64,000 bases of DNA from assembly GCA_003242085.1 (NCBI GenBank), contig QBML01000020.1:1-64000 (forward strand), written 5' to 3'. The DNA is from Pseudanabaena frigida. GTDB lineage: Bacteria > Cyanobacteriota > Cyanobacteriia > Pseudanabaenales > Pseudanabaenaceae. Of this stretch, positions 22,703-28,617 are shown piece after piece (positions within the stretch are counted from its first letter, which is position 1; every line of letters starts with the position of its first letter). Under the pieces are notes generated by a model, which saw only the letters and a list, made by a program, of their open reading frames with translations, ran no database searches and had not been told where the DNA came from. The position numbers were made by a program, and so were the translations under genes.

Positions 22703-22756
22703 AGGCTTCGACTACGCTCAGCCAACGTAGACTGCTGGCTGAGCGTAGTCGAAGCC
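22703..22756. repeat. GGCTTCGACT/AGCCA inverted repeat, copy 5 (perfect)
   Basis: 21-bp arms (22703-22723, 22736-22756) are exact complements around a 12-base spacer. This is the least decayed copy and serves as reference for the family. Confidence 0.85.
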
Positions 22757-22802: not shown

Positions 22803-23138
22803 TTAAATATCCTCGTCGTCCCATTTCTCTTGAGTATATCCAAGTTCGATCGCGGCTGCTTGCTCTTCACTGGAAAGGTCATCCCAAAGTTTTTCTGCCG
22901 ATTCGGGAATATCATCTTCTCCTTCCCAACTAGATTGAGTCCAACCTAGAACTCCCCAGAGTTTTTTATCTTCATTAGATAGATCGTCCCATTCTGGAAA
23001 ATCTACTGCATCATCCCAGTTATCTTCATTCCAACCTAATTGCGTCCACAGCTCTTGTTCGGCAGTAGAAAGATCTGACCAACTCAGTTCACTCCAGAAT
23101 TCATTAGGATCGCCAGTCACTTCACGGATAGTAGTCAT
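22803..23138 (-). CDS. Acidic protein with three W-rich repeats
   Basis: A 111-residue, strongly acidic soluble protein made of three tandem units of about 32 residues. The pattern is W-x-DLS-x-EE(Q/K)-x-LW-x-x-LG(W/Y)-(T/N)-x-x-x-W(D/E). Examples are SWSDLSTAEQELWTQLGW, EWDDLSNEDKKLWGVLGW and LWDDLSSEEQAAAIELGY. The final unit replaces Trp by Ala and Tyr. There are no cysteines, signal peptide or membrane segments. I recall similar motifs in proteins of algae and cyanobacteria, but no function is known to me. It is a stand-alone gene after a repeat element. Confidence 0.7.
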   Translation of the reverse strand: MTTIREVTGDPNEFWSELSWSDLSTAEQELWTQLGWNEDNWDDAVDFPEWDDLSNEDKKLWGVLGWTQSSWEGEDDIPESAEKLWDDLSSEEQAAAIELGYTQEKWDDEDI

Positions 23139-23262
23139 AAAAATTTGCTCGCAAATTAAAGTTCACCTAGATTTCATCATAGGTTTTGCTAGCTTTGAGA
23201 AGCAACAGCTAAAATTTAACCTTTCAAAAAAAGAGGGTGTGCAAAGCACGTCTTTTATTTAC

Positions 23263-25155
23263 TTAGATGCTTATGTTGCGAATAAGCATTGTCTCAAAGT
23301 CTGTGGCGTTTACAGGTTTTCCAAGGTAATAGCCTTGTCCATAGATGTAGCCCATTTCTATAAGTAAATCCATCTGCTCTTTCGTTTCAATTCCTTCGGC
23401 AATTACAGAAAATCCAAGGGTATGGGAGAGATCGATGATTGTTCGACAAATGCCAATCTTTTTCTCATCATTTCGATGTCTAGGAACTAGGCTCATATCT
23501 ACCTTTACCTCATTAAAGGGGAACTGCAAAAGCTGAGCCAACCCACTTTGTCCAGTTCCAAAATCATCGACTTTCAGTCTAATATCAAGAAGCCTAAGTT
23601 CATCTAATGCGGCTAAATAGTGGTTTAAGTCGCTATAAATGCCCCTTTCAGTAACTTCTACGCCAACGCATTGAGACTCAATATTTTCACGTCCAACAAG
23701 TTTGATTAGATTTGATAGGAACTCACCATCTTCTAACTCGACTGGTGAAATGTTTACAGCAACTGCCAATGAGGATTTTATTTGCCTCCATTCAGCTAAT
23801 TGGGCGATCGCATTTCTGACCACCCAGTTGCTTAGCCTATAAATACTTCCATTATTTTCGGCGATGGGAATAAATCTAGCAGGGGACACAAAACCAATAG
23901 CGGGGGACTGCCACCTTAGAAGTGCTTCAGCACTTACTATCTCACCTGTAAGCAGATTTACTATAGGCTGATAGGCAAGCCATAGCTCGCCTTCGATATT
24001 GCCTTTTAATCCCACTTCAATTTGTGAAGTAGCTGCTTCAATTTCTGAGAGCTTATCATCCCACACAACAATCCTGTCGATAGGTAAGTCAGATTTTTTA
24101 TTGGTCTTTGCTTTTCGGCTAGCGGTCTCCGCAGCTTGCATTAATTTAGCAAGATCGCTACAACCATCAAAAACTTTAATCTCGCCATAAGCAACGCCAA
24201 TAGAAGCACTAATATTTGCTTTCTCACTATCAATGTGAATTCCTTGAATTTTAGCTAATATCGTTTTTGCTACTTCCTCAACCTCAGTATATTCAAATAG
24301 GAATACAAATTCATCCCCACCTTCTCTAATTGCAATCCCATTATTTTCTATAGCAATCTTTTTTAACTCGCGACCAACATCAACCAAAACCCTATCGCCA
24401 ATGGCATGACCTCTTGTATCATTTATCTGTTTAAATTTATCTAAATCTAAATAGATACAACTTTTCCACTTCCCCTCAGTTGGCTCTGACTCAAGGATAC
24501 GGCGACTATACATATTTGTAAGATAGTCTTTTACTGATGCTTCCTTGACCCCTGATATATCAATAAAATTCATATATAGAAGTCCGTCTGGTAGTGGCGC
24601 ACAGAGGTTTAGAAACCAAGATGTAATGCTATCCCCCCGATACATGAACTCTAGCTCTGTTGGCTCTTTAATCTCTAGGTATAAGTCAATTAACGGCTTT
24701 TTATATGGATAGGAAATCTCTTTGTGGTGAGGTAGTGATTCGGTCAATAACTTCCCTTCAACTAGTTGATTGTTTGACAGTTCAACAGCTTTAGGATTGA
24801 CTTTTAAGATCAATAGATCGTTCCCCTCAGGTATATGTTGAAATATAGCTTTTCCAGATAATGCTTGATCGAACGCGGTATCAAATAGTTCTGAGGTTTG
24901 TGAAATCAATAGAATTTTTTTCTGATTTGCAGCAAGTGCAAATACCGTAAGCCAACTAACGATCGCGGTTACGCCATGCCAAAGAGTATGCAATCCAAAG
25001 AAATCAAGTAGATGTCCAATGCCACAACAGATTATAAAAAGAGAAATTAGTACCGCAATATATTGCGCTTCCTTTTTAATTACTCCTAATAATGGCAACA
25101 ATAAAAATGGGATCACAAAATAAGATATAGCGATCGCTAAATCAAGGTATCGCAT
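23263..25155 (-). CDS. Ethylene-receptor-like N-terminus with PAS, GGDEF and EAL domains
   Basis: A 630-residue membrane protein. Three membrane helices (about 5-23, 30-53 and 61-77) carry Asp5, Tyr12, Ile15, Pro16, Ile41, Cys44 and His48. This spacing matches the ethylene/copper-binding residues Asp25, Tyr32, Ile35, Pro36, Ile62, Cys65 and His69 of plant ETR1. A PAS-like region (about 90-200) is followed by a diguanylate cyclase with intact GGDEF (279-283) and a phosphodiesterase with intact EALLRW, NISPVEL, TERGI, KVDDFGTG and AEGIET motifs. No RxxD inhibitory site precedes GGDEF. It should make or degrade c-di-GMP in response to a membrane signal; ethylene as ligand is inference. Confidence 0.85.
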   Translation of the reverse strand: MRYLDLAIAISYFVIPFLLLPLLGVIKKEAQYIAVLISLFIICCGIGHLLDFFGLHTLWHGVTAIVSWLTVFALAANQKKILLISQTSELFDTAFDQALSGKAIFQHIPEGNDLLILKVNPKAVELSNNQLVEGKLLTESLPHHKEISYPYKKPLIDLYLEIKEPTELEFMYRGDSITSWFLNLCAPLPDGLLYMNFIDISGVKEASVKDYLTNMYSRRILESEPTEGKWKSCIYLDLDKFKQINDTRGHAIGDRVLVDVGRELKKIAIENNGIAIREGGDEFVFLFEYTEVEEVAKTILAKIQGIHIDSEKANISASIGVAYGEIKVFDGCSDLAKLMQAAETASRKAKTNKKSDLPIDRIVVWDDKLSEIEAATSQIEVGLKGNIEGELWLAYQPIVNLLTGEIVSAEALLRWQSPAIGFVSPARFIPIAENNGSIYRLSNWVVRNAIAQLAEWRQIKSSLAVAVNISPVELEDGEFLSNLIKLVGRENIESQCVGVEVTERGIYSDLNHYLAALDELRLLDIRLKVDDFGTGQSGLAQLLQFPFNEVKVDMSLVPRHRNDEKKIGICRTIIDLSHTLGFSVIAEGIETKEQMDLLIEMGYIYGQGYYLGKPVNATDFETMLIRNISI

Positions 25156-25174
25156 AAGCTGAGGTTTGTTTTAT

Positions 25175-25226
25175 TAGTATGCTAAAAGTCCCCATTGCTA
25201 AAGCTATAGGGGCTTTTAACATACTA
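25175..25226 (-). terminator. Hairpin downstream of the FTR1 gene
   Basis: TAGTATG...AAAAGTCCCC pairs with GGGGCTTTT...ATACTA around a 15-base loop, starting about 20 bases after the FTR1 stop codon on the minus strand. It separates the iron operon from the GGDEF-EAL gene. Confidence 0.6.
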
Positions 25227-25244
25227 ATGCATCAGCCTAATGTA

Positions 25245-26168
25245 TCAGCGAGAAGATTTTAATTGCTTGCCTAAGCTGCGGTAATAGATTGTGCCGACGA
25301 TCGCAAAAAATAGGATATAGGCGATCGCCTGTACTAAATAAAGCTTATCGGTATAGCCAAATAGCGAACTAAAAATTATACCTGGAAATTTTTCGGCGGG
25401 TAATACTTTGCTTGTATTCCAGACCATATTGCCAAGGACGCAGGAATGCTCGCGGGCAAAATGCTCGTAGTAAAAACAAATAGCTTCGGACTTACGATCG
25501 CTTTGAGACAAAATCCGTAGAGCCGTATCAAAATGTCCGAGGGCAGAAATTACCAAGCCTGAAACAATGGCTAGCAGCATAAAGCCCATAATTTTGAAGA
25601 AAGCACGGATATTAATTTGGATGCCAAATTTAAATAGGGCAATGGCGATCGCGGTTGCAGCTGCAATACCACTTACAGCTCCGAGAGCTGGCATAAATCC
25701 TTCTTGAAACTTAGCGGAAATAAATAAAACAACTTCAAACCCTTCCCGTAAAATCGCAACCAGAATCAGTCCAAAAATTCCTAATCCTGCTTTTTGTCCT
25801 TTACCTAAAACATTATGTAACGAGCCTTCGATTTCTCCCTTCAAGGCACGACTTTGTTTGGTCATCCAGATCAACATCCAAGTCAACATGGCGATCGCTG
25901 CAACGCTAAACACGCCCTCAAGCAACGGCTCGAATACTGCCGATAACTCTGGGTTACTAGTACCAACGCTCTGCATGAACCAATTGAATAAAATGCCAAC
26001 GATCGCACTAATTACCAAACCCGTGCCAATCCCTGCAAATACCCATCGATTAAGATGCGATCGCTTAGCGCGTTTGAGATACGCCATGACGATGCCAATT
26101 ACTAAGGCAGCTTCGACTCCTTCGCGCAGAGTAATGACAAAAGTTGGAAGAGTTAAACTGAAGTCCAT
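25245..26168 (-). CDS. FTR1-family iron permease
   Basis: A 307-residue inner-membrane permease of the FTR1/EfeU family with two REGxE iron-handling motifs, TLREGVEAALVIG (about residue 14) and ILREGFEVVLFIS (about residue 137). Six to seven membrane helices and a cysteine-containing loop (FYYEHFAREHSCVLGN) follow. FTR1 proteins take up Fe3+ produced by a ferroxidase. Here the oxidase and a periplasmic lipoprotein are encoded immediately upstream on the same strand, which supports an oxidase-coupled system. A CCCCTT/AAGGGG hairpin lies in the 122-base gap before it. The exact metal is not proven. Confidence 0.92.
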   Translation of the reverse strand: MDFSLTLPTFVITLREGVEAALVIGIVMAYLKRAKRSHLNRWVFAGIGTGLVISAIVGILFNWFMQSVGTSNPELSAVFEPLLEGVFSVAAIAMLTWMLIWMTKQSRALKGEIEGSLHNVLGKGQKAGLGIFGLILVAILREGFEVVLFISAKFQEGFMPALGAVSGIAAATAIAIALFKFGIQINIRAFFKIMGFMLLAIVSGLVISALGHFDTALRILSQSDRKSEAICFYYEHFAREHSCVLGNMVWNTSKVLPAEKFPGIIFSSLFGYTDKLYLVQAIAYILFFAIVGTIYYRSLGKQLKSSR

Positions 26169-26290: not shown

Positions 26291-27373
26291 CTAAGATTTT
26301 GTATAAACTTTGGCGGCGGATTGTTCGTTGCCTTTAATCAACTCTGACATATCAGCAACGGACAGGACAGGTTGCTCTGGGGCGATCGCACTAGGATAAG
26401 CGGTCTTGAGTTTTTCTAAACTTGCCGTAAATTGTTTATGAGCATCTGGATGTTCCTTTTCCATAACTAGCGCAATATTCTTATACAACTGCTCTACATA
26501 AATAGTGAATCCGCGTGAATCTTGATATTCAATGATTTCTTTAATCTTGTTGTTGGCGATCGCCGCTCGATATTCTGTACCTGCCGTATCGAGGATGGTA
26601 TTAATCACTTGCAGCGTAAACTTCGGCGATTGGCGTTGAGTTTCAGGAATTGCCGAGATTGCCATATCGATACTGGCGATCGCTTCATTATATTTCGCAG
26701 CAATCGTGGGATCGTTGGGCTTCGACTTAACCAACTGCTGTAAATCCATCAACACTTGCTTAAATTCTTTGACGTTACGCTCCTTGAGCTGACCTTCTAC
26801 ATCAGCGTAGATTTCTTCAACAGGATGTTCAATGTGAGGGAGCGCTTGATCGGGTTTCTGAAGATCGAGCAATTCTTTAGCCACAATCATGTGTCCTTTC
26901 ATCAGACCTAACTTAGTTAAGTAGTCAACGTCTTTCGCTTCGCCTGTTAGCACAACAGTTTCTGTGCCAACCATATCTTTGATTTGGTCAAACTGTTCAG
27001 CAGTTACTACTTTTTTCGTAACTAAATCCTCAGCTTTGACATAGGGACGAGCCGCTTGAATTTTGTTAGATAAACCTGCTATTCCTAACTTTGCTTCAAC
27101 TTTATCTAAATCCGATAAAATTGCTTCGTTAATATTAATTTTGGATTTACTATGACCAGCCATCATTGAGTCTTTTTGAGTCTCGGTTTTGGACTTAGAG
27201 CTAGACTCAGTAGTCGCAGGATTAGAGTTAGGAGGGTTTGAGACTTTTACCTCACTGGTACAGGCTGAGATAGCGATCGCGCCAACCAATGAGAGCGTGA
27301 ATAGCATTAAAAATGCTTTGGTTTTGACTAGATTTTTAAAAGTCTTACTGATGAAAGAGATAATTGCGAGCAT
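26291..27373 (-). CDS. Periplasmic HHH-containing lipoprotein of the iron uptake operon (EfeO-like)
   Basis: A 360-residue exported lipoprotein: hydrophobic signal with lipobox-like AISACTSE, then a Ser/Thr/Lys-rich linker containing a Met-His patch (KDSMMAGHSK). A helix-hairpin-helix-type segment follows (INEAILSDLDKVEAKLGIAGLSNKI...AEQFDQIKDMV), then a helical C-terminal half with scattered His, Glu and Met (MKGHMIVAKELL, ALPHIEHPVEEIY). The helical half resembles imelysin/EfeO-type proteins, though no HxxE signature is clear, so the family is tentative. Between the multicopper oxidase and FTR1 genes it is the natural candidate to carry iron from oxidase to permease. Confidence 0.65.
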   Translation of the reverse strand: MLAIISFISKTFKNLVKTKAFLMLFTLSLVGAIAISACTSEVKVSNPPNSNPATTESSSKSKTETQKDSMMAGHSKSKININEAILSDLDKVEAKLGIAGLSNKIQAARPYVKAEDLVTKKVVTAEQFDQIKDMVGTETVVLTGEAKDVDYLTKLGLMKGHMIVAKELLDLQKPDQALPHIEHPVEEIYADVEGQLKERNVKEFKQVLMDLQQLVKSKPNDPTIAAKYNEAIASIDMAISAIPETQRQSPKFTLQVINTILDTAGTEYRAAIANNKIKEIIEYQDSRGFTIYVEQLYKNIALVMEKEHPDAHKQFTASLEKLKTAYPSAIAPEQPVLSVADMSELIKGNEQSAAKVYTKS

Positions 27374-27530: not shown

Positions 27531-28529
27531 CTAACTCGCAACTACATCAAACAATCCCATACAACCAGCTTCCGCGATTACATCTTGGTGCGGATGGAAC
27601 ATGTACTTACCTGTAAATCGATAGGTCAACTCCAAAATATGACGTTCGGCTGTTCCCATCGTAATTACATCCGTTTCTTCGCTAGGGGTCATGGTGCGTC
27701 CCGTGCGGTAAACCTGAAACATATTGGCATGGACGTGAAATGTAGCCACAGGGTCAAACTCAATCATATTAAGGACATATAAACGCAATAACTGATTTTG
27801 CTGCACTGCGATCGGCTGCTGCATATAGAAATGTGGTAATCCGTTAAAGGCATACATATCATTACGCCCATCGCCATCTATGTCGTATCCCGCCATGATT
27901 AACACCATCTCATCCGCAGGAGGTCTGGGAGTAGGTGGGTCAATAATAAACATCCCGTATAAACCTTTGCCAATGTGCCGCGCCACAGGTGCAACATGGC
28001 AATGATATAAATGCACACCGTAGGGCATTGCATCGAATTCATAAATAGTCGCGGCTCCATTGCGAATTGGATTGACTCCATCCATCGCCGAGGGATGTTC
28101 GCCATGAAAGTGCAGCGAGTGTGAATGTCCCCCTTGATTAGCAAAGGCAATCCTAATGCGATCGCCTTCATTGGCTCTCAACGTCGGGCCTGGCACGCGA
28201 TCGTTTACATTCCAAGTAATGAAATCCGTAGAAGCATTTAACTTAACTGTTTTACTTTTTGCAGTTAGTTCAAACTCTCGCACCGTCCGTCCATTTTCTT
28301 GAGTAACTTTGCCATAGTCAAATTCTCGTAAAGCCGCGGTCGGATCGAGCCCACTAATTTTGATTCTGTCCTTCGATGCCTCACTAAGATTTATTGGCGG
28401 AATCACAATCTTTTTTGGAGTGTCGCTTGCTGATTTATTTGAAGCTATGGGACTACAAGCGATCGCGCCCCCAAGCAGTCCCAGTCCACCAATTCCCCAC
28501 TCCAGTATTTTTCTACGCTGCCGATCCAT
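27531..28529 (-). CDS. Two-domain multicopper oxidase, candidate ferroxidase
   Basis: From the ATG at 28529 this is a 332-residue exported protein with a twin-Arg-containing, lipobox-ending leader (DRQRRKILEWGIGGLGLLGG...ACSP). Two cupredoxin domains follow. Copper ligands are visible in HSLHFHGEHP and YHCHVAPVARHIGKGLYGMF (type 1 Cys and His with nearby Met), then TFHVHANMF and MFHPHQDVIAEAGCMG. This is the pattern of a small two-domain oxidase rather than a three-domain laccase. Located upstream of the HHH lipoprotein and FTR1 on the same strand, it probably oxidises Fe2+ for uptake, like Fet3-Ftr1 in yeast. Copper export or other substrates remain possible. Confidence 0.85.
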   Translation of the reverse strand: MDRQRRKILEWGIGGLGLLGGAIACSPIASNKSASDTPKKIVIPPINLSEASKDRIKISGLDPTAALREFDYGKVTQENGRTVREFELTAKSKTVKLNASTDFITWNVNDRVPGPTLRANEGDRIRIAFANQGGHSHSLHFHGEHPSAMDGVNPIRNGAATIYEFDAMPYGVHLYHCHVAPVARHIGKGLYGMFIIDPPTPRPPADEMVLIMAGYDIDGDGRNDMYAFNGLPHFYMQQPIAVQQNQLLRLYVLNMIEFDPVATFHVHANMFQVYRTGRTMTPSEETDVITMGTAERHILELTYRFTGKYMFHPHQDVIAEAGCMGLFDVVAS

Positions 28530-28617
28530 TAACTCTACTTGCAAATAGTTCCTATTTATCTTAACGAATTTCTTGCAGCTTTGGATATGGCAGATCTATC
28601 GTTTATTTAGCTAGAAA

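Follow-up and report, generated by a model that had tools for sequence, protein, structure and literature searches.

The membrane domain with which plants sense ethylene, classified as ETR1_N (PF25487), is found in several named systems: ETR1 of Arabidopsis, SynEtr1 (UirS, Slr1212) of Synechocystis, GeiEtr1/2 and AzoEtr1. Seven residues are required for ethylene binding in ETR1 (PMC6682694), whose copper site comprises Asp25, Cys65 and His69 (PMC12643061; PMC6586836). Ethylene binding and an effect on motility are described for SynEtr1/UirS (PMC5812497), and reviews note that bacterial proteins carrying this domain differ widely in their outputs, some of which are domains that plant receptors lack (PMC7700396). 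In the literature searched, which was largely open-access, we found no published account of a shortened "mini-domain" (mini-EBD) of this type fused to PAS, GGDEF and EAL domains. Here we describe such a protein from Pseudanabaena frigida.

The gene lies in a window of 64,000 nucleotides, the whole stretch of DNA that was analyzed (contig QBML01000020.1). Its open reading frame (25155..23263, minus strand) has 630 codons and encodes 630 amino acids, in which three transmembrane helices are followed by a signaling helix, a PAS domain, a GGDEF domain and an EAL domain. The ethylene-binding-like domain and the start of the next helix (78–96) occupy residues 1–90 (24886..25155, minus strand), and the end of the signaling helix and the PAS domain (about 100–200) occupy residues 91–205 (24541..24885, minus strand). 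The GGDEF domain, with its GGDEF motif at 279–283, covers residues 206–358 (24082..24540, minus strand; Pfam PF00990 at residues 210–354, E 1.5e-23), and the EAL phosphodiesterase domain covers residues 382–630 and the stop codon (23263..24012, minus strand; PF00563 at residues 388–614, E 1.1e-64). The AlphaFold model contains three N-terminal helices (approximately 2–25, 28–53 and 59–76), a helix at 78–96, a PAS fold at about 100–200, and then GGDEF and EAL; the membrane helices were modeled with moderate confidence (mean pLDDT about 59–86 per block). The linker resembled LOV, PAS and PYP structures in Foldseek, and a weak PAS_4 match in the relative L224 supports the PAS assignment. A sequence-only reading of this DNA had recognized the membrane, GGDEF and EAL domains; it missed the PAS domain, as well as the losses within the membrane domain described below.

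Residues 5–81 matched ETR1_N with an E-value of 8.3e-10 and 39.2 bits against a cut-off of 27 (42.2 bits in the genome search), and in a search across all of Pfam no unrelated membrane-sensor family gave a better match, ETR1_N being the only family assigned. Asp5, Tyr12, Ile15, Pro16, Ile41, Cys44 and His48 were all found where the sequence-only reading had placed them, as counterparts of ETR1 Asp25, Tyr32, Ile35, Pro36, Ile62, Cys65 and His69. The ETR1 spacing that it had claimed was likewise borne out, the sole difference being the distance from the proline to the helix-2 isoleucine (26 in ETR1 and 25 here). In an alignment of ETR1 with 161 canonical cyanobacterial domains, each of these seven residues was conserved in 150–161 sequences. 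An HMM built from canonical cyanobacterial domains only scored residues 1–90 at 40.9 bits, whereas the highest score among 2000 shuffles was 14.6 bits and all other frames of the window stayed below 7 bits. HHalign of the protein's family against the canonical domains gave a probability of 98.8% and an E-value of 6.6e-17; a search of the domain sequence against solved structures returned nothing significant. These profile comparisons indicate that the resemblance of the N terminus to the ethylene-binding domain is homology.

The domain is nonetheless divergent. Its score of 42 bits compares with mostly 125–157 bits for canonical cyanobacterial domains in the same kind of search. It shares with ETR1, SynEtr1, GeiEtr1/2 and AzoEtr1 the three transmembrane helices, the seven binding residues and, by HMM and profile comparison, the family itself, but its N terminus is very short: the protein begins four residues before Asp5 and lacks the HCYLW stretch with its cysteine. 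The loop between helices 2 and 3 is also shorter than in canonical domains. Lys91 is important in the ethylene-binding domain, and its position is Lys or Arg in 154 of the 161 canonical sequences; the Pseudanabaena protein has no clear equivalent, the column being occupied by His60 or left empty according to how the gaps are placed. The Lys/Arg residue and the HCYLW stretch are common in the family and are not published criteria of membership. On sequence grounds, we consider the sensor to be a genuine but divergent and shortened member of the ethylene-binding-domain family.

When a profile of residues 1–205 was used as the query, only 2 of 386 cyanobacterial genomes gave full-length matches, that of P. 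frigida and one from another cyanobacterial order (G046), and no full-length match to the gene was present in the 25 other genus members searched. In the order to which G046 belongs, full-length relatives with the domain occur in about 17 of 65 genomes. A peptide-pattern search for close relatives in 85,462 species genomes gave only four weak matches, and a search for plasmid relatives gave only weak matches to Acaryochloris domains. Sequence comparison thus places the protein in a small family of mini-domain PAS-GGDEF-EAL proteins, represented here by 16 relatives (L206–L218, L220, L221 and L224); those examined were 31–46% identical to it. The positions of Tyr32, Cys65 and His69 are invariant in all 16, and 13 have a His in the column of His60. 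The architecture is the same throughout, but the relatives mostly have Asn at the Asp25 position (15 of 16), where the Pseudanabaena protein retains Asp, and they lie in another genomic neighborhood. L224 looks intermediate, having the Asp, a Lys and an N-terminal PHGSCYFW. The family PAS domain is as conserved as the remainder of the protein. In L222 (G478), a single transmembrane helix replaces the ethylene-binding-like domain in front of the same PAS-GGDEF-EAL; this natural domain swap implies that the output can work without that domain. In a tree, the Pseudanabaena protein fell within a clade of proteins from the other order, as a long branch joined to another long branch, so that its exact place is unsure.

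The catalytic columns of both output domains are kept, and the description of the GGDEF and EAL domains as intact therefore holds. In the EAL domain, the motifs EALLRW, NIS, EVTE, DDFGTG, KVD and EGIE and residue Q607 are all present; the stretch before GGDEF, compared within the family, contains no RxxD inhibitory site. The structures closest to the whole protein in Foldseek were PA0861, PA0575, MorA and DosP, which are PAS-GGDEF-EAL or GGDEF-EAL proteins with a similar output module but unrelated sensors. Because these nearest enzymes suggest it, the EAL phosphodiesterase probably provides most of the output, and the GGDEF domain would bind GTP as a regulator or have minor cyclase activity.

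The protein has GGDEF-EAL in place of the histidine kinase output of the SynEtr1 type. The statement that known bacterial receptors of this type are kinases proved too narrow, since GGDEF or GGDEF-EAL occurred in 7 of 164 cyanobacterial domain-bearing proteins, including this one: GGDEF-EAL in four (again counting this one) and GGDEF alone in three. A kinase-like motif was found in 76, and the others were left unclassified, many sequences being incomplete. Canonical ethylene-binding domains are joined to GGDEF-EAL in L083 and L105 and to GGDEF in L093, L046 and L156, with GAF also present in L093 and L156. These five proteins share an ethylene-receptor-type domain and a c-di-GMP output with the Pseudanabaena protein, but their domains are canonical and high-scoring, with other PAS/GAF linkers, whereas its domain is divergent. 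Among ethylene-binding-domain proteins, a c-di-GMP output thus seems to have more than one origin. The same P. frigida genome also encodes a canonical ethylene-binding domain-PAS-PAS-HisKA_2 kinase (L001, G000:C28:46647).

The gene lies 89 bp downstream of, and on the same strand as, a gene for an FTR1-family iron permease (25245..26168, minus strand), which is conserved in the genus without it. Further upstream are genes for a 360-residue protein with a weak helix-hairpin-helix match (26291–27373) and a two-domain multicopper oxidase of 337 residues (27531–28544, minus strand). This trio, which looks like a copper-dependent iron-uptake set, is kept in most genus members with a close FTR1. Thirteen genus members, including the genome of the window, have a close FTR1 orthologue, and in eight of them no gene intervenes between FTR1 and the one that here lies downstream of ours, so that the site is empty. 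That downstream gene (22803–23138, minus strand) encodes a small acidic protein of 111 residues, is 74–83% conserved in the eight relatives, and has an internal 51-nt repeat and no Pfam match; at 22704–22756 lies a terminator-like inverted repeat with perfect 21-nt arms around an 11-nt spacer. Because FTR1 directly adjoins the next gene in these eight relatives, the most natural reading of the locus is the insertion of a single gene, its copper/iron neighbors being incidental; this is simpler than the alternative, a loss in all the others.

A hairpin with a T-run lies 3' of the gene (23232..23256, minus strand). In several relatives its terminator-like counterpart comes after FTR1, and here the hairpin delimits the presumed insertion on its 3' side. 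A 27-nt imperfect inverted repeat, forming a terminator- or attenuator-like hairpin, separates FTR1 from the gene (25173..25228). It has no second copy in the genome, and we rejected its identification as a mobile-element copy on that ground. Codon usage is ordinary and gives no sign of recent transfer, although the gene's GC of 0.387 is the lowest, and its GC3 of 0.322 near the low end, among the window genes compared. If the gene arrived by insertion, as is probable, its source was most likely the cyanobacterial lineage carrying the relatives. In the other order (L212, L218, L220 and their neighbors), the family gene is flanked on one side by a GDSL-type esterase-like gene and a small conserved ORF and on the other by a glutamate dehydrogenase-like gene, the esterase and dehydrogenase being named by eye from sequence.

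Taken together, our preferred reading, to which we give a probability of about 0.55, is a membrane c-di-GMP enzyme with a divergent sensor of the ethylene-binding family whose helices hold Cu(I), probably acquired as a single gene. Since all seven ETR1 residues are kept, the protein is likely to bind Cu(I) and could bind ethylene. The helices would form a dimer in which Cys44, His48 and Asp5 coordinate Cu(I); ethylene as ligand, or an altered copper or redox state, would shift the helices, and helix 78–96 followed by the PAS domain would relay the movement to GGDEF-EAL, altering c-di-GMP and in turn surface behavior or motility. The protein is most likely a membrane sensor, probably Cu(I)-dependent, that would tune c-di-GMP turnover, mainly as a phosphodiesterase. 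Of the earlier proposal that ethylene or copper is connected to c-di-GMP, the domain homology and the c-di-GMP output stood; support for the identity of the ligand did not go beyond the retained residues, given the strong divergence and the Asn at the Asp25 position in the relatives. Ethylene is a plausible ligand, and the link to motility would follow by inference.

Asn takes the place of Asp25 in most relatives, so that the signal sensed by the family may be something other than ethylene. The domain could have been repurposed to bind Cu(I), or another metal or redox signal, and to report copper or redox state rather than ethylene. In favor of this explanation, Cys and His are invariant, whereas 15 of 16 relatives have Asn for Asp25 and the Lys91 position is not conserved, and a copper-dependent oxidase and an iron permease adjoin the gene; however, these neighbors are ancestral to a locus into which the gene was probably inserted, relatives elsewhere have other neighbors, and the protein itself retains Asp, so that we regard the explanation as possible but rather doubtful. 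It is unlikely that the helices are a structural anchor that merely dimerizes the protein in the membrane, with the PAS domain as the real sensor: such a role would fit L222 and a PAS domain conserved to the same degree as the rest, but the metal-binding residues are invariant across a family at most 46% identical to the protein, which is unexpected for a mere anchor.

Alternatively, the gene could share an operon for copper/iron uptake with the genes for FTR1 and the multicopper oxidase, its product sensing the metal needed there. Its position, on the same strand 89 bp 3' of FTR1 and before FTR1's original terminator, would permit read-through transcription, but a strong hairpin separates the two genes, no such gene follows FTR1 in relatives, and family members elsewhere are flanked by the esterase-like and glutamate dehydrogenase-like genes; we consider membership highly improbable. 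Conserved co-function with FTR1 and the multicopper oxidase was rejected on the same two comparisons, and the copper/iron neighborhood is weak evidence for function because the gene is probably inserted and family neighbors differ in the other order. The preferred reading of a divergent Cu(I)-holding sensor can be extended to a horizontally moving receptor for ethylene (or Cu(I)) that would set c-di-GMP within one polypeptide, the canonical Asp/Lys pair being replaced across the family; this extension we hold tentatively, at somewhat less than even odds.

A c-di-GMP output on ethylene-binding domains already exists elsewhere, and what is new here is the divergent mini-domain variant. If the protein binds ethylene, a gaseous hydrocarbon would be tied to c-di-GMP with no phosphorelay in between, and this might account in part for the effects of ethylene on motility and biofilm in cyanobacteria. 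With any ligand, a family that keeps Cys and His and varies the Asp25 and Lys91 positions offers a ready-made set of variants for testing the copper/ethylene site, and if these proteins are indeed divergent receptors, they would provide a natural series showing which residues ethylene binding needs.
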